Source: Burkholderiales bacterium (GTDB taxonomy: Bacteria; Pseudomonadota; Gammaproteobacteria; Burkholderiales; Casimicrobiaceae). Taken from it: a DNA stretch of 38,578 nucleotides. The notes below the pieces were generated by a model. It worked only from the letters and a program-made list of their open reading frames with translations, ran no database searches and was not told the DNA's origin. This document shows positions 16,198 through 38,578 of the stretch, piece by piece (position 1 is the first letter of the stretch; every line of letters starts with the position of its first letter). Location: NCBI GenBank assembly GCA_025354165.1, contig JANXNI010000018.1, positions 1 through 38,578 of the forward strand, given 5' to 3'. Position numbers and translations under genes: made by a program.

Positions 16198-17988
16198 ATG
16201 AGAACAACTTACACAGGCCTGGTCGACACCAAATACATCGACCAAATCGTTACCGTTACTGGCTGGGTGCATCGTCGCCGCGACCACGGCGGCGTAATCT
16301 TCGTCGACCTGCGTGATCGCGAAGGCATCAGTCAGGTCGTCATCGATCCAGACCGTCCTGACGCGTTCAAACTCGCCGAAACGCTGAGGAACGAGTTCTG
16401 CATCCGTGTGACAGGCAAAGTCCGCGCACGCCCCGAAGGCACAACGAATAAGGACATGGTCTCTGGCGGCATCGAAATCTTCGCCCACGAAATCGAGATT
16501 TACAACGCGTCGCTCACGCCACCGTTCATGATCGACGAGGACGTTGTCAACGAAGAGCTTCGTTTCAAATATCGCTACCTCGACCTGCGTCGCCCGCAAA
16601 TGGCGAAGAACCTCATGCTGCGCGCCAAGGTGGCGCGCGCTGCGCGTGAATACTTGGACGAGCGCGGTTTCGTCGACATCGAAACGCCGGTGCTCTACAA
16701 GAGCACGCCGGAAGGCGCGCGCGAGTTCCTCGTACCGTCGCGCATGCACGACGGCCAGTTCTACGCACTGCCGCAAAGCCCACAGCTGTTCAAGCAACTC
16801 TTGATGGTCGCGGGCTTTGACCGTTACTACCAAATCGTCAAATGCTTCCGCGACGAAGACCTGCGCGCTGATCGTCAGCCCGAGTTCACGCAGATCGATA
16901 TCGAGACCTCATTCCTGACCGAGCACGATGTGCAGGACATGATGGAAGGCCTGATCAAACACTTGTGGAAAAAGGGCCTCGGTGTTGATCTGCCAACCTT
17001 CCCGCGCCTGCCGTATTCGGAGGCGATGAGCAAGTACGGCAGCGATAAGCCCGATCTGCGTGTCAAGCTTGAGCTCACCGAACTCACCGACGTGATGAAG
17101 ACCGTGGACTTCAAGGTCTTCCGTGGTGCGGCCGATTTGAAAGACGGTCGCGTGGTGTGCTTGCGCGTTCCGGGTGGCGCCAAGATTTCACGCAAGGAAA
17201 TCGACGACTACACCACCTTCGTCGCGATTTACGGCGCGAAAGGGTTGGCCTGGATTAAGGTGAACGACGTCACCAAACTGAACGAAGAAGGCCTGCAAAG
17301 CCCAGTCGTCAAGTTCCTCACGCCGGACTCCATCGCGCAAATCATCGCTCGCAGCGGCGCACAAAGCGGCGACATCATCTTCTTCGGCGCGGATCGCAAG
17401 AAGGTCGTCAACGACGCGATGGGCGCACTGCGCGCGAAGATCGGTGTGCAACACGGCCAAGAACTCGGCTTCTTCGAAAAAGGCTTCAAGCCATGCTGGG
17501 TCGTCGACTTCCCGTGCTACGAGTACGACGAAGAGAACAAGCGCTACGTCGCCGCGCACCACCCATTCACCAGCCCGAAAGACGACCACTGGCCCCTGCT
17601 CGACACCGACCCAAGTCAGGTGCTCGCCAAGGCCTACGACGTCGCCATGAACGGCTGGGAACTCGGCGGCGGTTCAGTGCGTATCCATCGCCCCGAACTG
17701 CAAGCCAAACAATTCGCCACGCTGGGCATCAGTGAAGAAGATCAACGCGCCAAGTTCGGCTTCCTTCTCGACGCGCTGCAATACGGCGCACCGCCGCACG
17801 CAGGCATCGCGTTTGGGCTGGATCGGATTGTCACCATGATGTGCGAAGCCGAATCGATCCGCGACGTGATTGCCTTCCCGAAGACGCAGCGAGGGCAGGA
17901 CTTGATGGTGGATGCGCCTACGCCGGTGACGGAGAAACAGTTGCGCGAGTTGCATATTCGGTTGCGGAATACGCAAGTGGCAGGGTAA
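16198..17988 (+). CDS. aspS: Aspartyl-tRNA synthetase, probably non-discriminating (Asp/Asn)
   Basis: This class II synthetase of 596 residues charges tRNA-Asp. It has the N-terminal OB-fold anticodon domain (about 1-105), motif 2 with [18 protein letters not shown], the bacterial GAD insertion (about 290-415), and motif 3 [13 protein letters not shown]. His30 in RRRDHGG and Gly81 in RARPEGTT correspond to the His31 and Gly83 that mark non-discriminating AspRS in Pseudomonas aeruginosa, whereas the E. coli discriminating enzyme has Leu and Lys. Such an enzyme also misacylates tRNA-Asn, with GatCAB finishing Asn-tRNA. That predicts gatCAB elsewhere in this genome. The upstream ribosome binding site is weak. 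Confidence 0.97.
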
Positions 17989-22675: not shown

Positions 22676-24139
22676 TTGACACACGTTCCCAAAGATCCGC
22701 TTGACGCCCCAGACTTGGGTGCGTTGTCCGATCTTGCGCCGCAACTGGCGCAGACCTTTGTGTCCATCGCCAGCGACATTGCGCTGGTAATCGATGCCGA
22801 CGGTGTGATTCGTCATATGGCAACGGGGGCCGCTCCCATCGCAGGATCAAATGCCAACTGGATCGGTCGTCCTTGGGCTGAAACGGTCAGCGGTGACACC
22901 CGACGCAAGATTGAGCAACTGCTGAGCGAGGCGCAGACCTCGGGCGTCACTCGGCGGCGTGAGGTCAATCACCCCACCGTTGGAGGGCAGGATATTCCGG
23001 TGGCGTACACCGCCATTCGTTTGGGGCGCGATGGCCCGGTGCTTGCGGTTGGCCGCGATCTGCGCGCTGTAATGGCGATCCAGGAGCGTTTTGTTGTCGC
23101 ACAGCAGGATATGGAGCGTCATTACTGGCAGCAGCGCCAGTCCGAATCGCGTTATCGGCTGCTGTTTCAGGTGGCTACCGACGCCGTGATGGTGGTCGAT
23201 GCACATACGCTCTTGATCGTCGAGGCAAACGCTGCGGCAGGGGCATTGTTCGCCCGCACAGGCCTAAATTTGCTGGGTAAAAGCGTGCTTGATGGCGTTG
23301 CCCGCACGAGTCGACCGGGCGTAGAAGAGCTTCTGATCACGGCGCGGGCCAGCGGTCGACCTGCCGAAATTCGGGCGCGTGCAGCGAGCGCGCCCGGCAC
23401 CCTTGTTTTCACGCAACTGGCGGCCATCGACATTTCCGCGACACCGTTTCGCGCGGGCGAGACGATGTTGTTGCTGGTTCGCGCGCGCGCGGTCAGCGCG
23501 GCGACCGAAAAGCAGTCGGGCAGCGAGCTTGCCGAATTTGTGGAGCGCACCACTGACGCAGTCACCATCACCGATTCCAGTGGTCGTGTGCTGATGGCAA
23601 ACCCGGCGTTTGCCACGCTTTGCGGATTGCCGAGCGAGGCTCAGGCAATGGGTCGGGGTCTGGCTGAGGTATTGGGCGACCCGCAGCATGCGCTGATCTC
23701 CATCCTGGCAGAAGCGCGGCGTCACGGCATTGCCGAAAAACGGATAGCTGTGGTTGGGCAGGCAGACGGGCACCGTTGCGAGGTAGAAATCTCGGCGGCG
23801 ATTTTGGCTGAGGGCGATCAGGAACGGATTGGTTTGACGCTGCGACGCTGCGACACAGTGACCTGCTCGACGCCGTTGCAACTCGGCGAACTGGCCCGGG
23901 CCATTGATAGTTTAGCGAATCAAATTGGCCAGGTACCCCTGTCCGAACTTTTGCAAGAGGCGAGCGACATCGCCGAGCGCCACTTGATCGAGGCAGCCTT
24001 GCAGCGTACGCAAGGCGACAGCGAACGCGCCGCTGAACTGCTTGGCATCAACTCCGATAATTTTGACCGCCGCTCGCGCTATCTCGGCGTCGGCTCGTCT
24101 TTACCGACTGCCGCCGTCGACCCCAAGCTGATTCATTAG
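22676..24139 (+). CDS. ppsR: PpsR/CrtJ-type PAS-domain transcription regulator
   Basis: PpsR proteins repress photosynthesis and pigment genes in purple bacteria and are relieved by redox or by a light-sensing partner. The 487-residue protein has the family layout: an N-terminal PAS (about 25-125, SDIALVIDADGVIRHMA), a coiled linker (FVVAQQDMERHYWQQRQSESRYR), PAS1 (about 160-270, ATDAVMVVDAHTLLIVEANAAA), PAS2 (about 285-395, TTDAVTITDSSGRVLMANPAF) and a C-terminal Fis-type helix-turn-helix (about 425-472, LIEAALQRTQGDSERAAELLGI). The recognition helix NSDNFDRRSRYLG departs from the usual SRQSLYxKLRRYG, so DNA specificity may differ or be lost. The only usable start is TTG 22676. A bacteriophytochrome starts seven bases after the stop, so the pair is co-expressed. 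Confidence 0.85.
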   Translation: MTHVPKDPLDAPDLGALSDLAPQLAQTFVSIASDIALVIDADGVIRHMATGAAPIAGSNANWIGRPWAETVSGDTRRKIEQLLSEAQTSGVTRRREVNHPTVGGQDIPVAYTAIRLGRDGPVLAVGRDLRAVMAIQERFVVAQQDMERHYWQQRQSESRYRLLFQVATDAVMVVDAHTLLIVEANAAAGALFARTGLNLLGKSVLDGVARTSRPGVEELLITARASGRPAEIRARAASAPGTLVFTQLAAIDISATPFRAGETMLLLVRARAVSAATEKQSGSELAEFVERTTDAVTITDSSGRVLMANPAFATLCGLPSEAQAMGRGLAEVLGDPQHALISILAEARRHGIAEKRIAVVGQADGHRCEVEISAAILAEGDQERIGLTLRRCDTVTCSTPLQLGELARAIDSLANQIGQVPLSELLQEASDIAERHLIEAALQRTQGDSERAAELLGINSDNFDRRSRYLGVGSSLPTAAVDPKLIH

Positions 24140-24146
24140 CTCGCGC

Positions 24147-26345
24147 GTGATTTACAGTCCGCCCTTCGGCCAGGCCGATCTCACCAATTGTGAGCGTGAG
24201 TTGATCCAGCTCGCCGGCTCAATACAGCCTCACGGCCTGCTGCTGGTGCTTGATCAACCAGACGGCGTAATCGTGCAAGCGTCATCGAACGCCGCAAACT
24301 GCTTGGGCGTGGCCAGCGGCAGTTTGATCGGCACGTCACTCACCGCGCTGCTGGGCGACATCGCGCAACGGGTGCTTGAATGCGCTACGGTCGCCGATCT
24401 GGCAGAGCCGCTACCGTTGCAATGTTCGACCGTTACGTGCGACGTTGTCAAATATTGGGAGGGCGCCCTGCATCGTATTGAGCCAGGCCGCTTGATCGTT
24501 GAGCTGGAGACGACTGCTGACGCGCCGACCTTCACGGTTGCGCATGATCAGCATCGCTTGCTGCAACTGGTCGGGGACTCGGTGCAGCGCTTGAGCAACG
24601 CGGCAAACATCGGCGTACTCGCCGACACCGCTGCGCTCCGTGTGCGTGAATTGATTGGCTACGACCGCGTGATGGTCTACAAGTTCGATGCCGATGGCCA
24701 CGGCAAAATCATCGCCGAGGCTCGCGACCCGCGACTGGAATCGCTGCTCGGCCATCACTATCCCGCCACCGACATACCGCAGCGCGCGCGTGAGCTGTAT
24801 CTCCGCAATCGCGTTCGCGTCCTGGTGGATGTACACTACGAGCCGTCCGTGCTGGAGACGGCGGCTGAAAGCGCAGACAACAGTCCACTCGACATGTCGA
24901 TGTCGTTCTTGCGCAGCATGTCGCCGCTGCATTTGCAGTATCTGAAAAACATGGGCGTCACCGCGACGCTGGTGGTGTCTCTGGTGCGCGAAGGCAAGCT
25001 CTGGGGCCTGATTGCTGCGCACCATTATTCACCGCGCAACGTGCGCTTTGCGGTGCGCGCCGCCTGCGATCTGCTCGCCGAGGTCATGTCCACCCGAATC
25101 GCTGCGATTGAAAATTACGCCCACGCGCAGGTGGCGGTGATGGTGCGGAGGCTGGAGCAACGGTTGATCGAAGCGACGTCCACCGAGGGCGATTGGCGGC
25201 TCGCCCTGTTCCGCAACCCGCGCACGCTGCTGCAACCGCTGGAGGCGACCGGAGCCGCGTTGTTCACCGACGGCGAAGTGTTGACTTCGGGTGAAGTACC
25301 GTCCACGCCGGAGCTGCGTGAGCTGCTGCAATGGATTGACACACAGTCGAAGGAGACGCTGTTTAGCTGCTCCTCGGTTGCCAAAGCGAACCCAATGCTC
25401 GACTCGTTGACGCCGACGGCTAGCGGCGTGCTCGCGGTCAAGCTGTCAACCAAGCGGCCCGATTATTTGATGTGGTTCCGCAAGGAGCAGCTCTTAACCG
25501 TGACGTGGGGCGGCGATCCGTCCAAGCCCATGTTCGGCAACGATCCCAGGGAGCTCTCGCCACGGCGCTCGTTTGCGGCATGGTCGGAAATTGTGCGCAG
25601 CACGGCGCTGCCCTGGACGAGCGCCGAACTCGCGCTGGGTCGCGCGATTGGTGCGGCACTCGTCGATATCATCGTGCAGGTACACGCCGTACGCTTGTTG
25701 GTTGCCGAACATCAGTTAGCTGGCATTCGCGCCACCGTGGAAAGCTCGGGCGAGTCCGTGGCAATTGCTGATGCGGACGGGCGCTTGTTGTTTTGCAATC
25801 ATGCCTTTGCCGCGCTGACTGGGCGCAGCGGAGACGAAATTCCCGACTTGCAGCAGGTGGCGCGGCTGTTCACCGATCCGCACGCCATGCGCCGGACGCT
25901 GGCCGCGCTTAATGGTGGCCAGCCGCCGTGGCGTGGCGAGATGGCCCTGCGCCTTGAGGACAAATCAGCGCTGCCAGTCGCAGTGCGTGCTGAGGTGGTG
26001 CCAGGACGCGATGGCAAGATGCTGGGATTTATCCTCACCCTGTTTGATCTGCGCGACAGTAAGCGCGCTGCCGCAGCCCGCCGCCATCTCGAAGAATCGA
26101 TGCAGTTGGCCGCGCATGGACGCAGCCTCAACGCCGCGATGGACGACGCCCCGCGCGGTGCCGACGAGGTGATCGGCGCAATTCTCACTAACGCGAGCCT
26201 CGCCGCGATGGACATTGCCGACGGCTCGATCGGTACACCCGTTGCAGCGCTTCTGGAGGAGCTGGAAACATCCACCCAGCGCGCCGCATCGTTATACGAG
26301 CAGATTCGCGCGTTCACAGGCAAAGCGGTGGAGTCGGCCCGCTAG
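24147..26345 (+). CDS. bphP: Bacteriophytochrome, PAS-GAF-PHY with PAS and kinase-like helical output lacking the catalytic domain
   Basis: This 732-residue red/far-red photoreceptor binds biliverdin through Cys15 (DLTNCERELIQLAGSIQPHGLLL) in the N-terminal PAS. The GAF domain has the chromophore-contact motif ATDIPQRARELYL with Asp209, His262 in MSPLHLQYLKNMGV and GLIAAHHYSPR. A PHY domain follows to about 510. The output is a PAS (about 520-640, VAIADADGRLLFCNHAFAALTGR) and two helices (EVIGAILTNASLAAMDIADG, LLEELETSTQRAASLYEQIRAF). These resemble dimerisation helices of HDFNN-type histidine kinases, but the phospho-His is missing and there is no ATPase domain. It probably signals by binding PpsR, as reported for BphP1 and PpsR of Rhodopseudomonas and Bradyrhizobium. 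The start is GTG 24147. Confidence 0.92.
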   Translation: MIYSPPFGQADLTNCERELIQLAGSIQPHGLLLVLDQPDGVIVQASSNAANCLGVASGSLIGTSLTALLGDIAQRVLECATVADLAEPLPLQCSTVTCDVVKYWEGALHRIEPGRLIVELETTADAPTFTVAHDQHRLLQLVGDSVQRLSNAANIGVLADTAALRVRELIGYDRVMVYKFDADGHGKIIAEARDPRLESLLGHHYPATDIPQRARELYLRNRVRVLVDVHYEPSVLETAAESADNSPLDMSMSFLRSMSPLHLQYLKNMGVTATLVVSLVREGKLWGLIAAHHYSPRNVRFAVRAACDLLAEVMSTRIAAIENYAHAQVAVMVRRLEQRLIEATSTEGDWRLALFRNPRTLLQPLEATGAALFTDGEVLTSGEVPSTPELRELLQWIDTQSKETLFSCSSVAKANPMLDSLTPTASGVLAVKLSTKRPDYLMWFRKEQLLTVTWGGDPSKPMFGNDPRELSPRRSFAAWSEIVRSTALPWTSAELALGRAIGAALVDIIVQVHAVRLLVAEHQLAGIRATVESSGESVAIADADGRLLFCNHAFAALTGRSGDEIPDLQQVARLFTDPHAMRRTLAALNGGQPPWRGEMALRLEDKSALPVAVRAEVVPGRDGKMLGFILTLFDLRDSKRAAAARRHLEESMQLAAHGRSLNAAMDDAPRGADEVIGAILTNASLAAMDIADGSIGTPVAALLEELETSTQRAASLYEQIRAFTGKAVESAR

Positions 26346-26357
26346 CAGACGCGTCTG
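26346..26357. other. 12-bp perfect palindrome between bphP and bphO
   Basis: CAGACGCGTCTG immediately follows the bphP stop in the 41-base gap between convergent genes. It has no loop and no T run, so it is not a typical terminator; it may bind protein or be chance. Confidence 0.35.
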
Positions 26358-26386
26358 GGTGCCGCCCCTGTCCCCATGCTGCGAAG

Positions 26387-27031
26387 CTACGAAGGCAGCG
26401 TCGGTGCGAGTTGCTCAAACAAATCGCGATGTCGGACGAACGCGGCTCGCGCCTCGTCCACAACGGCCTGTCCGCTTTCACCTTCGCCTTCGACCAGTAA
26501 ATCGAGTCCGGCACGAAACTCCTGCGCCAGGCGCTTGACAGTGTCCTCCGATCCAAAATCGTAAAAACAAACCCCTTCGTTGGGAGCGAGCTGCAAACTT
26601 TTCACGACGACACGTGCGAGCATCTGGCCTCCGCTCAGATCGCCCAGGTAGCGCACGTACGCGTGCGCGGCCAGCAACAGTGGCACCGTCGTTGCCTTCA
26701 AATGTTGAACGTAGGCGACCGCAGCCGGGACGAGCGCGATATCGATGGCCCAGTTCTGCCCGTGCAGGCGTGCCAGATCGTCGGCGAGCGGCGCTGCGCG
26801 AAACATCGTTTCGCAGTGCAAGCGCCGCAAACCCATGTGCTCGTTGTGCTGCTGGATACGCGCTTCAAGCGCTGCGTAAATGGCGTGCAGGTTACGCAGT
26901 AGCGCGCAATAACCAGCACGGTTCAGTTGTCCGCGCAGCAGCAAGCGCATCACGCCAGCGCGCTCGACCTCGGCGTGAAGCGATTTTGTGCTCTCGCGCA
27001 GGCGAGTGGTCAACAGGGGTTCGACGGGCAT
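26387..27031 (-). CDS. bphO: Heme oxygenase supplying biliverdin
   Basis: Heme oxygenase opens heme to biliverdin with release of iron and CO. The 214-residue protein has proximal ligand His19 in ESTKSLHAEVE and the distal-helix motif YLGDLSGGQML, with the usual all-helical composition. Its position beside and convergent to the bacteriophytochrome indicates the job of making the chromophore (BphO type) rather than iron recovery, since no heme-uptake gene is near. The start ATG at 27031 lies in an ordinary context; it would be separately promoted from the plus-strand pair. Confidence 0.9.
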   Translation of the reverse strand: MPVEPLLTTRLRESTKSLHAEVERAGVMRLLLRGQLNRAGYCALLRNLHAIYAALEARIQQHNEHMGLRRLHCETMFRAAPLADDLARLHGQNWAIDIALVPAAVAYVQHLKATTVPLLLAAHAYVRYLGDLSGGQMLARVVVKSLQLAPNEGVCFYDFGSEDTVKRLAQEFRAGLDLLVEGEGESGQAVVDEARAAFVRHRDLFEQLAPTLPS

Positions 27032-33018: not shown

Positions 33019-34383
33019 TTAGAAAACGGACAACGGCCCCGCTGGAAAACGGTTCAGCGTCGGGAACGCTAGCGAGAGTTCGGTCGACGTCAAACCAAAA
33101 CTGCCAGCGAGTGCGGCTGCATACTGTTCTGTTGCCGTGGTCGGAATCCATCGACCCCCACTGGTATCGTCAGGCCCATTCACCCGCAGGGTAGGAAACG
33201 TGCCGAAGAGCTGCTTGCCTTTGACCGCGCCACCCAACATCACATGATGGCTGCCCCAGCCGTGATCCGATCCACCGCTTCCATTGGCGGGAAAGTCACG
33301 ACCGAAATCGCTCATGGTAAACGACGTGACCTGGGCGGCGACACCCAGCTCAACAGTGGCCCGATAAAACGCCGCCATAGCGTCGCTGACGATGCCCAGC
33401 AACTCGCCCTGATCCGGCAATTGATCGATGCCATGGGTGTCAAAACCGCCAATAGAGCAGAAGAACACCTGCCGCTTCACACCAAACGAAGCTCGCGCAG
33501 CGATCAGCCGCGCCACGGTTCGTAACTGGTCACCGAGCCCTGATCCGGGAAACGTTGTCACCAATGGAGAGGCGCGACTCAGCGCCTCCTGAAACACGGC
33601 CTGTGTGGTGATACCGCGCTTGATGGTGTCGTTCCATGCCGCCTCAAACAAATGGCCACGTGCCGTGTTGATCATCTCACCGAAACCCAGTGAGAGTGCG
33701 TCGCGACTGGTTGAGTCGTAGCTGTCAAAGCCAAAGTTGCCGTTGGATGCAACCAGAAAGGGCGACACGGTTGCGCCCTGTTGAAATCCACTACGGCCGT
33801 TCACCGCAACAGCGGTCGCCACGTTTTGCACACCGTTTAGGGAGGCCACCCTGTCCGCCACCCGCCCGCCCCAACCGAGCTTGATTGAGCTGTCGGACGT
33901 GCCTGCTTGCCACTGACTCTGTTGATCGCTGTGAGAGAAAAGATTGGGCGGTATTTGCGCAGCGTTTGCCTGCCATTGCGCACGCGTCAGCGGCTGCATA
34001 AGTGGGCCAACGTTAGCGACGGCTGCACATTGCCCCGTCTCAAACAGGCTCGCCAGGGCACCCATCTGCGGATGCAATGCAAAGGGTCGACCCTGCGTGT
34101 TGGTTGGGTTGATCGCGTGCAAATCGCCGCGCGGCAACGCGAGTCGACCGCGACCGCTTTGATAATCTGAATAGCCCGCCACATCAAGCGGAATCAGCAG
34201 ATTGTTGCCGTCGTTACCACCGAACATGAAGATCGCCACCAGCGCCCGATAGTCGCTGGCGGTAGCGTTCTGTGCGAATGCTGCGCGAGTCAGCCCGCCC
34301 ATGAGGCCGCCCCCCAGCATTACAGGGGCCAAGGCAGTTATTTTTAGCGCGCTGCGGCGGGACAAATCAAATGACTTTTGCAT
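33019..34383 (-). CDS. DUF1501-family exported protein
   Basis: The 454-residue protein has a twin-arginine signal (LSRRSALKITALAPVMLGGG) and the DUF1501 core: RALVAIFMFGGNDGNNLLIPLD, YQSGRGRLALP, NPTNTQGRPFALHPQMG, GFDTHG and TMSDFGRDFPANGSGGSDHGWG. The family belongs to the alkaline-phosphatase/sulfatase-like fold; substrate unknown. It is encoded right after the DUF1800 gene (9-base gap), a pair conserved in many bacteria and presumed to act together in the periplasm. Confidence 0.92.
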   Translation of the reverse strand: MQKSFDLSRRSALKITALAPVMLGGGLMGGLTRAAFAQNATASDYRALVAIFMFGGNDGNNLLIPLDVAGYSDYQSGRGRLALPRGDLHAINPTNTQGRPFALHPQMGALASLFETGQCAAVANVGPLMQPLTRAQWQANAAQIPPNLFSHSDQQSQWQAGTSDSSIKLGWGGRVADRVASLNGVQNVATAVAVNGRSGFQQGATVSPFLVASNGNFGFDSYDSTSRDALSLGFGEMINTARGHLFEAAWNDTIKRGITTQAVFQEALSRASPLVTTFPGSGLGDQLRTVARLIAARASFGVKRQVFFCSIGGFDTHGIDQLPDQGELLGIVSDAMAAFYRATVELGVAAQVTSFTMSDFGRDFPANGSGGSDHGWGSHHVMLGGAVKGKQLFGTFPTLRVNGPDDTSGGRWIPTTATEQYAAALAGSFGLTSTELSLAFPTLNRFPAGPLSVF

Positions 34384-34392
34384 GACTGTCGC

Positions 34393-36342
34393 CTATCGTT
34401 GGATGACAAATTCGGGGGCAATGACCGCCAGATTCAGCGCTGCCTGCAAGCGATTGTCACGTTCGCTGACCGGGTAGGCATTGATCGCCTTTTCGAGAAT
34501 GGCTTGGGTGTTGGCAGATATGCCGCCGGCGAACAGCACCCAGTTCATGCGCTCGATCAATTTTGTGGTGGTGCCCGCATCGGAAAGCCATGTTGTCATG
34601 TCGAAGTCGACGCGATTGGCCTCCTCAGAACCGAGGCCACCGTCGCGGATCAAGCGCGAGAAAAAATTGGTGCTACCCACGACCTGGGTGTCCGTTGCAT
34701 TCTGAAACTCAGGCGCGACAAGGCCCGCCTGCGCGATGGCACCCGCGCGGGTATAGAACGGCGAGAAAAAATTGAATACGGACGCCGCCAGCAACGGGGT
34801 CTGTCCAATGGCGTCATCCGGCGAATCAAGCCACCAGATAGAGTTGCGACCGCCGTTTGATTTAGCCCCCATCGCGTTAGCAAAGTGAACGAAGCGAATC
34901 ATCGGCTCCCTCAGTTTTCCGTAAGAACTACTGGCGACGGCCGCAGTCGCGGGACTACGCGCCTCATCATCCAGCAATATCGCACGCACCACCGCTTTAA
35001 GGTCGCCACGCACGCCAGAACCGTTGTTGTTCCACACAGCGACCACGCGTGTCATGTACGCCGGGGAAGGATTGCTGGTCACCAAAAACTGGATCAGCCG
35101 CTTGCTCATGAACGGTCCCACATTCGGGTGATTAGCGATGTTGTCAAGTGCATCGTCGAGGTCGCGCTCGGGCGTCTGCCCAGCGGGTAGTGCGACTCCG
35201 CCAAGCAGCATTTTGGTGCCGGTCGAATGATGACTGGGCCAGGCCTGCATCTCAACGGTCCAATTCTTTTTGGGCGGATTGAAGCCGTCAGAAAATGTTG
35301 TGTCGTTGCCGCCGAAGCTCCATCCGGTAAACACCTTCGCAAAGCCCTGAACCACGTTTTGATCGTAGGTGGCAATCGTCTTGCCTGCGGCATCGCGCTT
35401 CGGCGTGCCATCAACATTTAACTCAACCAGCCCAATCGAAAATAGCTGCAACACCTCGCGTGCGTAGTTTTCGCTCGGCATACGCCCGCTGACCAGGTCT
35501 TCCTTGTCGTTGCCGAGCATGTTCAGGTAGTAGCCCATGGCGGGCTGCAACGTCACGTCACGCAGCAGCGTGCGATAGTTGCCAAACGCGTTCTCATAAA
35601 GCGTATCCATCCATCCGGCCAGCGCGTCGGTATCCTGATCCGGCGCAATGTTGGACACCACCATGATTTCCGAGAGCGCAAGGGCTACGCGTGCGCGCAG
35701 ACGAGCATCGGAAAACATCATGTTCTGCCAGATCGCTTCAAATATATGCTGCTCTTCGACTTTGAGGCTCTGGCTGCGCAAAGCGGCGAGATAGCCCGCG
35801 TGCGGATCCCAGGGACGAGCGAACTCAGACTCAATCCACGCCGCAGGCGTGCGATTGGCAACGTCGTCAATATCGGCCAAAGAGCGCGGCCCGAAGCTGG
35901 CCTGCAGCAACAGTCGCGCGGCGTTGATTCGCTTCGGATCGGTCGCGACAGGCACGCTACCAATACGCAGAATTACCTCGTTCGACCACTGCGGCAGCGC
36001 GCCACCCACGTTGGCGGTGAATTTATGGTTACCAACCGGCAAATCAGGAATCTGCCAACTGCCCGACGCGAGATCGCTGCTGCCCCAGCGTTTGCCATTG
36101 AGGTACAGCCTCACCATAGCGTCACCATGGCCAACACTGGTGAACGAGACCGTAGCAGTCGCCCGATTGTTGGTGATGGCTCCAGCGCTTGCGCTCAGCA
36201 CCAATTCTGCAGCTGCTGCGCTCCACGACGCGAAAAGCCAGATGAGAATGATCAGCGTCGCCGCAATGATCGTCAAACGATCTGACCACTGTTTCTTGAA
36301 CTGTGTTGCGTACAACTTCACACGGCCACCGCTTTGCTGCAT
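34393..36342 (-). CDS. DUF1800-family exported protein
   Basis: The 649-residue protein starts at ATG 36342, where AGGAG lies seven bases upstream; a longer frame to 36420 has no support. An N-terminal transmembrane or signal segment (IIAATLIILIWLFASWSAAAA) precedes an immunoglobulin-like domain (about 45-130) and then the DUF1800 core: AARLLLQASFGPRSLADID, FGNYRTLLRDVTLQPAMGYYLNML, YAREVLQLFSIGLVELN, VVQGFAKVFTGWSF and VGPFMSKRLIQFLVTSNPSP. The family always accompanies DUF1501; the role is unknown. Confidence 0.92.
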   Translation of the reverse strand: MQQSGGRVKLYATQFKKQWSDRLTIIAATLIILIWLFASWSAAAAELVLSASAGAITNNRATATVSFTSVGHGDAMVRLYLNGKRWGSSDLASGSWQIPDLPVGNHKFTANVGGALPQWSNEVILRIGSVPVATDPKRINAARLLLQASFGPRSLADIDDVANRTPAAWIESEFARPWDPHAGYLAALRSQSLKVEEQHIFEAIWQNMMFSDARLRARVALALSEIMVVSNIAPDQDTDALAGWMDTLYENAFGNYRTLLRDVTLQPAMGYYLNMLGNDKEDLVSGRMPSENYAREVLQLFSIGLVELNVDGTPKRDAAGKTIATYDQNVVQGFAKVFTGWSFGGNDTTFSDGFNPPKKNWTVEMQAWPSHHSTGTKMLLGGVALPAGQTPERDLDDALDNIANHPNVGPFMSKRLIQFLVTSNPSPAYMTRVVAVWNNNGSGVRGDLKAVVRAILLDDEARSPATAAVASSSYGKLREPMIRFVHFANAMGAKSNGGRNSIWWLDSPDDAIGQTPLLAASVFNFFSPFYTRAGAIAQAGLVAPEFQNATDTQVVGSTNFFSRLIRDGGLGSEEANRVDFDMTTWLSDAGTTTKLIERMNWVLFAGGISANTQAILEKAINAYPVSERDNRLQAALNLAVIAPEFVIQR

Positions 36343-36471
36343 GGATAACTCCTGGTGCGCAAGTCCCCCGGTGCTGTGTCTACCCTGATGACGCGGTGGT
36401 TTGCGGCTCGCGGACGACAATTCGAAGTCTATGACGTCGTCATCAAAAATGCAAGCAGATGGACATGTAGG

Positions 36472-37614
36472 TCAATGTGCGAAGGCAATCGCCTCATGAC
36501 TATCTGGATCAAAAAGCACCGCTGCGGTCACGTCAATCGCAAGCTCTACCTCGTCCTGCCCGAGTGCTGCATCGGGATGCAGCCGACACACGCATCGCAC
36601 GCCGCCGAGGGTGGTGAACACCAGCGTGTCAGCGCCTGTGGACTCGGCCAGATCAACCGGCACGGTTATCGGCGAACCGGGCCCCTGCATGCGGCCCGCA
36701 TCGGTCATGTGCTCCGGACGTAGGCCCAGCAAGACTGATGTACCTGTCTCTGGAATCGTTTCCAAATCCGACAAATTGAAGCCGACCAGAGGCAAACGGG
36801 CGACGCGATCCGGGGCACAGTCGGCCGCGACACCGACAGAAAACTCCGCACACATCACGCCGTCGTTCACGGCGAGCGTAACCGGGATCAAATTCATGGG
36901 CGGCGAGCCCATGAAGCTCGCGACAAACGTGTTGACGGGTCGACTGTAAATCTCGTTCGGCGTGCCGAACTGTTGCACCACGCCGTCTTTCATGACGGCG
37001 ATTTTGTCGCCCAGTGTCATCGCCTCGACCTGGTCATGCGTGACATACACCGTGGTGATGCCGAGGCGTTTGTGCAGCAGCTTGATTTCGCTGCGCATCT
37101 CTACACGCAGCTTGGCATCGAGGTTCGACAGCGGCTCATCAAATAGAAAAATTTGTGGCTCGCGCGCGAGGGCACGGCCCATCGCCACACGCTGACGTTG
37201 CCCGCCAGAGAGTTGTGCCGGCTTGCGGTGCAGAAGCGGCTCGATTTGCAGCAACTTCGCGACGCGCGCAATCGTTGCGTCCTGTTCGGCCTGCGACACT
37301 TTGCGCAGCGACAATCCGAACGCAATATTTTGGCGAACACTCATCGACGGGTAAAGCGCATAGCTCTGAAACACCATGGCGATGTCGCGATCCTTGGGCG
37401 GCAAATCGTTGACGCGTTTACCGCCAATCGTGATGTCACCCTCAGTCACGGTTTCGAGTCCAGCGATCATGTTGAGCAGCGTGCTTTTGCCGCAACCAGA
37501 GCCGCCGACCAGAATCAGAAATTCGCCGTCGGCGATGTCGAGATTAATGCCCTTTAGAACTTCGACGTTCTTGCCGTAAGTCTTGCGGATGTTGTGAATG
37601 CCGAGACTTGCCAT
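36472..37614 (-). CDS. Carbohydrate ABC transporter ATPase (MalK/UgpC/GtsD family)
   Basis: The 380-residue ATPase powers sugar import. It shows Walker A GGSGCGKST, the Q-loop MVFQSYALYPSMSV, signature LSGGQRQRVAMGRAL, Walker B IFLFDEPLSNLD and switch His in VTHDQ. The C-terminal TOBE region (about 240-380) contains LLGLRPEH, the regulatory domain of MalK-like proteins. ATG 37614 has a purine-rich GGTGGGG upstream and is preferred to GTG 37623. It starts ten bases after the permease stop, so the two genes are one operon. GtsD of the pseudomonad glucose system is the nearest likeness in context. Confidence 0.93.
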   Translation of the reverse strand: MASLGIHNIRKTYGKNVEVLKGINLDIADGEFLILVGGSGCGKSTLLNMIAGLETVTEGDITIGGKRVNDLPPKDRDIAMVFQSYALYPSMSVRQNIAFGLSLRKVSQAEQDATIARVAKLLQIEPLLHRKPAQLSGGQRQRVAMGRALAREPQIFLFDEPLSNLDAKLRVEMRSEIKLLHKRLGITTVYVTHDQVEAMTLGDKIAVMKDGVVQQFGTPNEIYSRPVNTFVASFMGSPPMNLIPVTLAVNDGVMCAEFSVGVAADCAPDRVARLPLVGFNLSDLETIPETGTSVLLGLRPEHMTDAGRMQGPGSPITVPVDLAESTGADTLVFTTLGGVRCVCRLHPDAALGQDEVELAIDVTAAVLFDPDSHEAIAFAH

Positions 37615-37623
37615 GAACCCCAC

Positions 37624-38472
37624 CTAACCCTTGACTGCGCCAGCGGTCAACCCGCGCACAAAATATTTGCCAGCCACGATGTACACAAACAGCGTCGGCA
37701 ATCCGGCAATGATGGCCGCGGCCATGTCGACGTTGTATTCCTTGACGCCGGTTGAGGTACGCACGAGATTATTCAGTGCCACAGTAACGGGTTGTGAGTC
37801 TGCGCCTGCGAACACCACACCAAATAGAAAATCATTCCATATCTGCGTGAATTGCCAGATCACGCACACCATGAAAATGGGTCCACTGATGGGCATCAGA
37901 ATACGCCGGAAAATCACGAAGAATCCTGCGCCATCGACGCGCGCAGCCTTGATCAATTCACCGGGAACGCCGAGGTAATAGTTGCGAAAAAACAGCGTAG
38001 TGAACGCAAGGCCGTAGACCACGTGAACGAAGATCAAACCGAACACCGAGTCCGACAGGCCGATAGCCCCAAGCGTCCTCGCCATAGGCAGCAGCACCAC
38101 CTGAAACGGAATAAAGCAACCCACCAGCAGCATCGTGAACAACGCATCCGATCCGCGAAACCGCCAATGGGTAAGCGCGTAACCGTTCAGCGCGCCGACC
38201 AGCGTTGAGATCAACACCGAAGGAATCGTCATCACCAGTGAGTTCAAAAAAAACGGCTTCAAACCATCGCAGCGCACACCCGAACACGCTGTCCCCCAGG
38301 CCTTGAGCCAGGGGGCGAATGTAGGCGCATGCGGTGCCGCAATCAAGCTGCCTTCGCGGATTTCGTCCAGCGTCTTGAATGATGTGGACAACATCACCCA
38401 CATGGGTGCGAGCGCGTAGAACGCTGCGAGAAGCAGAACGAAGTACAAGAACAGTCGGGATAGTAAAGTCAT
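37624..38472 (-). CDS. Carbohydrate ABC transporter permease (MalG-like, GtsC-related)
   Basis: The 282-residue permease has six transmembrane helices and the cytoplasmic EAA loop (ELIKAARVDGAGFFVIFRRILMPISGP) that docks on the ATPase. The segment ACSGVRCDGLKPFFLNSLVM, VGALNGYALTHWRFRG and the ending NVDMAAAIIAGLPTLFVYIVAGKYFVRGLTAGAVKG are like GtsC of the glucose ABC importer. ATG 38472 is preferred: the frame continues upstream to 38535 only because it runs through a dispersed repeat (PHPSPLPRGERG). The partner permease and binding protein should lie just beyond the right edge. Confidence 0.92.
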   Translation of the reverse strand: MTLLSRLFLYFVLLLAAFYALAPMWVMLSTSFKTLDEIREGSLIAAPHAPTFAPWLKAWGTACSGVRCDGLKPFFLNSLVMTIPSVLISTLVGALNGYALTHWRFRGSDALFTMLLVGCFIPFQVVLLPMARTLGAIGLSDSVFGLIFVHVVYGLAFTTLFFRNYYLGVPGELIKAARVDGAGFFVIFRRILMPISGPIFMVCVIWQFTQIWNDFLFGVVFAGADSQPVTVALNNLVRTSTGVKEYNVDMAAAIIAGLPTLFVYIVAGKYFVRGLTAGAVKG

Positions 38473-38494
38473 GTTGGAGTACCAGCCAAGCTGT

Positions 38495-38532
38495 CCCCTC
38501 TCCCCTCGCGGGAGAGGGCTAGGGTGAGGGGG
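38495..38532. repeat. CCCTCTCCC/GGGAGAGGG dispersed repeat
   Basis: CCCTCTCCC (38496-38504) pairs with GGGAGAGGG (38510-38518), followed by CTAGGGTGAGGGGG. This is a very common intergenic repeat of beta- and gammaproteobacteria. It extends the permease frame artificially. Confidence 0.75.
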
Positions 38533-38578
38533 CACGTGGATCGGAGAGCAAACATCGTTTGCAGCGTCAACCCGCCCC

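Follow-up and report, generated by a model that had tools for sequence, protein, structure and literature searches.

The stretch of DNA analysed here (the window: 38,578 nucleotides, the entire contig C26 of Burkholderiales bacterium assembly GCA_025354165.1, called G000 below, with 97 contigs, 4.72 Mb and 95% completeness) carries a compact module of a ppsR-like gene, a bacteriophytochrome gene (bphP) and a convergent heme oxygenase gene. As a red-light switch for photosynthesis genes the BphP-PpsR pair has been studied in depth, and near-infrared optogenetic tools are built on it. The ppsR-like gene (22676..24139, plus strand; called from open reading frames, ORFs, and Pfam and NCBIfam profiles) encodes N-PAS, Q-linker, PAS1, PAS2 and a degenerate helix-turn-helix (HTH) tail; its 487 amino acids are counted from a TTG whose assignment as the start is uncertain, the frame being open for 31 codons further upstream. 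After a gap of 7 bp, bphP (24147..26345, plus strand) encodes from a GTG a kinase-less phytochrome of 732 amino acids with PAS-GAF-PHY-PAS9 architecture and a C-terminal helical region, of type 3 and RpBphP1-like, and the heme oxygenase gene (biliverdin supply; 26387..27031, minus strand; 214 amino acids) converges with it. ORFs and profiles agree with this gene order as given in a preliminary description made from the letters alone. The same description had called the regulator PAS-PAS-PAS-HTH; its PAS part is confirmed, but only half of the HTH is present and the canonical recognition helix is missing.

The window PpsR scores 299.6 bits against TIGR02040 (PpsR-CrtJ), above the curated cut-off of 275.4, with a match that ends at position 429 of 442. 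Pfam recognizes PAS-family stretches in it, and the solved relative 4hh2, which is Rhodobacter PpsR without its HTH (PMC6899989; here and below, published statements are cited from passages of the papers named), aligns over residues 15-379. The Q-linker helix region is retained (residues 126-170 in the alignment; 23051..23185, plus strand, as computed from residue numbers) and is 62% identical to a consensus derived from the 31 canonical PpsRs of the Burkholderiales. HTH_8 covers only model positions 5-31 of 42. The Fis-type recognition helix SRQSLYVKLRRYG is missing and the canonical SRQSLYVK is gone; sequence comparison identifies a remnant, LGINSDNFDRRSRYLG (residues 456-471; 24041..24088, plus strand), versus LGLSRQSLYVKMRRYG in the canonical PpsR encoded on contig C17 of the same assembly. 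The net charge of the window helix is +1 over 13 columns, versus +3 to +4 in canonical Burkholderiales PpsRs, and the HTH cysteine column holds Leu. This cysteine is also reported missing in PpsR2 of most strains (PMC6899989).

Loss of the canonical helix recurs in every phytochrome-linked PpsR of the Burkholderiales that was read. Among 399 Burkholderiales genomes, mostly drafts, 49 have PpsR at E 1e-40 and ten have more than one (G000 and nine others); at most four candidates were scored per genome in the surveys, so PpsR counts are lower bounds. Loci were read in 34 of the 49 (30, three more and G000), and the other 15 are represented by profile rows, all of which extend to position 442. 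The linked set comprises 14 proteins: the second copies of the nine genomes, the window, C17, genome G012, and one locus each from Ideonella sp. A 288 and Rubrivivax sp. MAG Ww161. In each linked locus the extra PpsR is followed by a same-strand phytochrome gene and a convergent heme oxygenase gene. With ORFs sharing an identical last 60 residues counted once, which drops the copy of the window PpsR in genome G013 and several near-identical canonical ones, the motif SRQ.[LF][YH].K[LM] is found in 31/31 canonical Burkholderiales PpsRs and 0/14 linked ones (Fisher p 6e-12, for rows that are not independent). Among the 14, a third helix region survives in diverged form in eight, the protein ends inside that region in two (G377, G320), and the HTH is absent altogether from four (G179, G217, G396, G311). 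Net charge of the recognition helix is +3 to +4 in the 31 canonical proteins and -2 to +2 in the ten linked ones with enough columns, and the HTH cysteine stands at its column in 31/31 and 2/10, respectively. The Q-linker is kept in 14/14 linked PpsRs, 51-69% identical to the canonical consensus, and a canonical PpsR is also present in 12/12 searchable genomes with a linked one. Because the end of the profile match is an imperfect proxy, these motif counts were taken from the sequences themselves: the TIGR02040 matches of G131, G248 and G278 stop at 367/368 yet the full ORFs have a canonical HTH, and the linked PpsR of G440 reaches 442 yet is without the motif.

The Rhizobiales present a different picture. 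Of 397 genomes, 75 have PpsR and 12 have two or three, and in every TIGR02040 match listed the alignment reaches profile position 441 or 442. In the fetched loci, read as sequence, the motif is present in 3/3 PpsRs whose immediate downstream neighbour is BphP (from two genomes) and in 43/43 others, five of which have a divergent phytochrome gene 410-915 bp away. In a phylum-wide sample of 398 genomes, the only matches that stop before 442 are Burkholderiales second copies. The scheme known from Rhodopseudomonas and Bradyrhizobium, to which the preliminary description pointed and in which BphP frees operator-bound PpsR, fails to transfer as it stands because the window PpsR has lost a helix that the three linked Rhizobiales PpsRs keep.

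A tree of 91 rows was built from the PAS part only, HTH excluded; its bootstrap is not fully settled. Six of the Burkholderiales linked PpsRs group with the three HTH-intact linked Rhizobiales proteins (support 100/100), and the other eight, the window included, are sister to an HTH-intact Rhizobiales clade (95/98 with 91 rows, 91/97 in a 39-row tree). A single clade of all 14 is rejected in the 39-row subset (approximately unbiased test, p-AU 6.4e-6), under a constraint run after the first tree was known and for a group defined by gene linkage. Since the 14 form two clades and a single clade is rejected, the recognition helix was lost at least twice independently. The linked ppsR genes are under purifying selection, and the ratio of nonsynonymous to synonymous substitution rates (dN/dS) of the PAS part is 0.03-0.48 across eight linked pairs, several with dS near saturation. 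Canonical PpsRs keep their HTH better than any other part (six pairs: 62/62 in four, 60/62 and 51/62 in the others, or 97-100% in five of six and 82% in the sixth). Among six linked pairs with an HTH tail, four show a tail less conserved than their PAS part, and the other two a tail better conserved by just 1-2 points.

The phytochrome profile reads PAS_2-GAF-PHY-PAS_9, with PAS_9 at residues 536-636 and HisKA and HATPase absent at the Pfam threshold of E 0.001, and its best solved match is 4gw9 (RpBphP1; 573.8 bits), whose source organism is Rhodopseudomonas (PMC6899989). On the plus strand of bphP lie NCERE with the expected biliverdin-binding Cys15 (24186..24200), the chromophore-pocket motif PATDIP (24762..24779), PRRSF, the tongue motif of the PHY domain (25560..25574), and AILTNASLAAMDIADG, the conserved core of the C-terminal, HOS-like output region (26178..26225). 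This C-terminal region is conserved across relatives; the AlphaFold2 model of the phytochrome is poor (predicted local distance difference test, 43.6), and a two-helix HOS fold is unreadable from it. The oxygenase matches Heme_oxygenase (PF01126, E 8.6e-46) and contains LHAEVE, with the proximal His, and GDLSGGQ, which we take to be heme oxygenase motifs of the HO-1 type. In a plasmid collection 104 records match RpBphP1-type phytochromes, all of which fall short of 80% query coverage and of 60% identity.

The preliminary description had noted 38 kb without bch, crt or puf genes and left two options, a photosynthesis cluster elsewhere or a module that controls something else. Absence from the window is borne out, although 38 kb is one contig: an assembly-wide PF00124 profile search matches C17 only, so the window contig has no puf gene, and none of its 39 ORFs of at least 200 amino acids resembles bch, crt or puf by eye, nine ORFs having been scanned with profiles as well. 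A genome-wide search of the kind that description had proposed placed the cluster on C17 of G000, with two PF00124 genes (pufL/M) and, among ten proteins scanned with NCBIfam, acsF, puhA, bchL, bchH, bchN, bchG, bchI, a crtI-family gene and bchC. The first option was thus correct, as G000 carries on C17 both a photosynthesis cluster and, inside it, a canonical PpsR (C17:65263-66771). Some 2 kb from acsF begins another ppsR-bphP-heme oxygenase triple (C17:43574-47977), whose BphP is 77% and whose PpsR is 58% identical to that of the window. An apparent in-frame TAG in the C17 bphP is its own terminal stop, and the frame is intact. A 5-aminolevulinate synthase gene (TIGR01821; C17:41591-42850) lies beside the C17 cluster and is preceded by a lone TGT-N12-ACA site (42936); ORFs that by eye are similar to this synthase also occur near pufC in G013 and G012. 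IS3-type transposase-like ORFs (C17:39408-40270), again by eye, lie about 3 kb from the C17 module copy and are a possible trace of how the module moved.

In G013, contigs C367 and C438 carry bchD, a crtI-family gene, pufC and a partial pufM, and a canonical PpsR is present in that genome too; the photosynthesis genes of G012 are on contig C132. Across the genus, puf, phytochrome and above-cut-off PpsR occur in the same three of 17 genomes (G000, G012 and G013), a fourth genome listed, G007, having a 24-bit partial match only, and a family-wide search finds PpsR at E 1e-30 in the same three of 64 genomes. Co-occurrence with puf supports a tie between the module and photosynthesis. The modules of Ideonella and Rubrivivax have crtC on one side and bchD on the other, inside the photosynthesis cluster.

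The window contig is probably misbinned and, by the DNA identities, probably belongs to the species of G013, a different member of the same genus. From position 16447 on, the part covered by the comparison, the window matches G013 contigs C504 (16447-26066, 98.7% DNA identity), C486 (26085-36636, 99.9%) and C667 (36674-38578, 100%), whereas C17 is only 69% identical to G013 at the ppsR region and 75% at the puf region. The aspS gene of the window (16198..17988, plus strand) has a second copy, 88% identical, on C79 of G000, a duplicate that may serve as a marker of a contig foreign to the bin. The gene order of C79 matches the window flank (aspS, aldo/keto reductase, methionine synthase-like gene and others), and C93 holds a 74% copy of window 33119-38424. 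At the site of the module C79 has just a 96-bp (32-codon) bphP scar, corresponding to residues 330-361 and 66% identical, and G012 carries the module at the same locus as the window. The module was lost at C79, while another copy adjoins the C17 photosynthesis cluster. The scar lies directly behind the aldo/keto reductase gene (G000 C79:150688-150783; L051:13001-13096). That the window contig is instead a genuine part of G000, with a second module acquired by transfer or duplication, would accord with the related triple on C17, and the comparison with G013 used assembled contigs and began at window position 16447; the near-identity to G013, and the duplicates that C79 and C93 carry of aspS and of most flanking genes, make this improbable. 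Since G000 and G013 both have photosynthesis genes, these are present whichever genome owns the contig. A short extragenic repeat with core CTCCCCTCGCGGGAGAGGG occupies window 38491-38548, with dozens of copies, 83-100% identical, among the matches listed in G000, G012 and G013.

A search for TGT-N12-ACA operators, also proposed in the preliminary description, came out differently for the two loci. The window holds six sites versus 6.07 expected from shuffles, with no tandem sites and none before ppsR or the heme oxygenase gene, and on this count the sites were rejected as evidence for local control in the window. The C17 cluster is likewise not enriched overall (six sites versus 7.1 expected), and only its tandem pairs stand out, at 80746/80770 and at 82919/82945, the latter just upstream of bchC (gene at 83029). 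Tandem pairs also occur in G012.

Loss of the same helix in relatives suggests that the partner of the phytochrome works by touching the true repressor and not DNA. We favour, at close to but short of an even chance, a reading in which this partner, a PpsR paralog blind to DNA, counteracts canonical PpsR through protein contact and under the control of light; loss of operator binding, formation of mixed oligomers and light gating are the steps we infer. The role toward canonical PpsR is probably that of an antirepressor, an economical interpretation because the partner keeps the parts that bind BphP and oligomerize, has lost the part that reads canonical DNA, and coexists with a canonical PpsR. 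Q-PAS1 is the minimal BphP1-binding part of PpsR2 (PMC7555876), PpsR from which the HTH has been removed still assembles into oligomers ranging from dimers to octamers, and AppA also binds at the PpsR Q-linker (both PMC3949515). RpBphP1 binds PpsR2 in far-red light and antagonizes its DNA binding (PMC6899989). In the proposed mechanism the module would be the red/far-red light input of an anoxygenic Burkholderiales phototroph, placed on a different contig from the photosynthesis cluster. Heme oxygenase would make biliverdin, through which the kinase-less BphP would sense light, and the PpsR paralog, retaining the oligomerizing N-PAS, Q-linker, PAS1 and PAS2, would be unable to read the PpsR operator. 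The DNA-blind PpsR would be free while BphP is in one of its light states, and its mixed oligomers with canonical PpsR would then poison binding to tandem TGT-N12-ACA sites, a dominant-negative effect; in the opposite state BphP would hold it, and which of the two states is active is not predicted.

Several observations weigh against this antirepressor mechanism. The window copy and five other members of its clade still have a third tail helix, and AlphaFold2 draws a window helix at residues 460-470, in a poor model (predicted template-modelling score, pTM, 0.30) that is weakly usable. The HTH remnant has dN/dS of 0.05-0.52 in linked pairs, below 1, and some constraint thus remains on the tail. 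The linked Rhizobiales set is small, three rows from two genomes, and the HTH cysteine is also missing in two of these three. No tandem operator occurs in 26 kb of cluster contigs of G013, the likely owner of the window. One published model has the PpsR2 HTH itself contacting BphP (PMC6899989), and HTH-less partners would be incompatible with it for that reason.

Because the window protein may fold a third helix (AlphaFold2, pTM 0.30), recognition of other DNA sites is a live if unlikely rival, in which the paralog would place non-photosynthetic genes under light control. The full-length third helix region in 8/14 and the tail dN/dS below 1 in linked pairs are consistent with it, but the helix is poorly conserved between sisters (the C17 and G012 HTHs are 52% identical, their PAS parts 74%) and wholly or partly lost in 6/14, and, of 17 genomes in the genus, only the three that have puf carry the module. 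It is doubtful, and slightly more so, that the paralog serves BphP alone, as its folding partner, as a sponge or as an adaptor to a different output, and has no contact with canonical PpsR. The retained Q-linker and PAS parts would suffice for binding BphP (PMC7555876); however, the module sits between crtC and bchD in Ideonella and Rubrivivax and, in the nine genomes with two PpsRs, is separated from the canonical ppsR match by 2.9-4.9 kb.

A classical PpsR2-type repressor, which would bind TGT-N12-ACA and be removed by BphP in far-red light as in Rhodopseudomonas, has in its favour a gene order and a BphP type shared with RpBphP1/PpsR2, a window PpsR above the equivalog cut-off, and HTH helices that are still predicted, with low overall confidence. 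With the canonical motif missing in 14/14 linked proteins, the entire HTH in 4/14, and no tandem operator in the window, it has little probability, a shade below that of a paralog devoted to BphP. The least probable explanation, to which we give very little weight, is a vestigial module in decay: HTH loss is repeated, and C79 of G000 retains just the 32-codon scar at the locus that the module occupies in G012 and the window, but the frame is open in 14/14 loci, dN/dS is 0.03-0.48, and heme oxygenase is retained in 14/14.

The antirepressor reading shares with RpBphP1-PpsR2 of Rhodopseudomonas palustris and BrBphP-PpsR2 of Bradyrhizobium a kinase-less PAS-GAF-PHY-PAS9 phytochrome paired with a PpsR and a second, canonical PpsR in the genome. 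The difference is that PpsR2 has an HTH and binds promoters (PMC6899989), whereas the 14 Burkholderiales linked PpsRs are without the motif; in addition, Bradyrhizobium bphP and ppsR2 lie within the cluster (PMC10569730), whereas the window module is on a separate contig of a draft assembly. As in AppA-PpsR of Rhodobacter sphaeroides, AerR-CrtJ of R. capsulatus and LdaP-PpsR of Dinoroseobacter, a light sensor would act on PpsR/CrtJ by protein contact (PMC3949515, PMC4452267, PMC12654162). In those systems, as these sources describe them, a blue-light sensor binds PpsR/CrtJ directly, unlike the proposal made here, where a DNA-blind PpsR paralog would be the go-between. Two PpsRs with opposite effects in one genome have a precedent in Bradyrhizobium PpsR1 (activator) and PpsR2 (repressor), both described as transcription factors in passages of PMC10569730 that do not mention HTH loss. 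Modules of PpsR, BphP and heme oxygenase have been described before; neither a DNA-blind form nor repeated occurrence of one was met in the literature searched (PMC titles, starts of abstracts and passages, subscription papers lying outside), which yielded no report of an HTH-less PpsR.

An implication for annotation is that a protein named PpsR because it passes the NCBIfam cut-off cannot be assumed to bind the operator. A broader proposal, held tentatively and somewhat less firmly than the antirepressor reading itself, is that Burkholderiales phototrophs have at least twice made the partner repressor a DNA-blind subunit that relays red light to canonical PpsR through mixed oligomers, a natural light-gated dominant-negative derived from the repressor's own paralog. 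If true, this would give a simple and testable antirepressor model, together with natural HTH-less partners for BphP-based tools. Repeated loss of the helix, under selection and beside a phytochrome, would then mean that light signalling to PpsR needs no DNA-bound partner.

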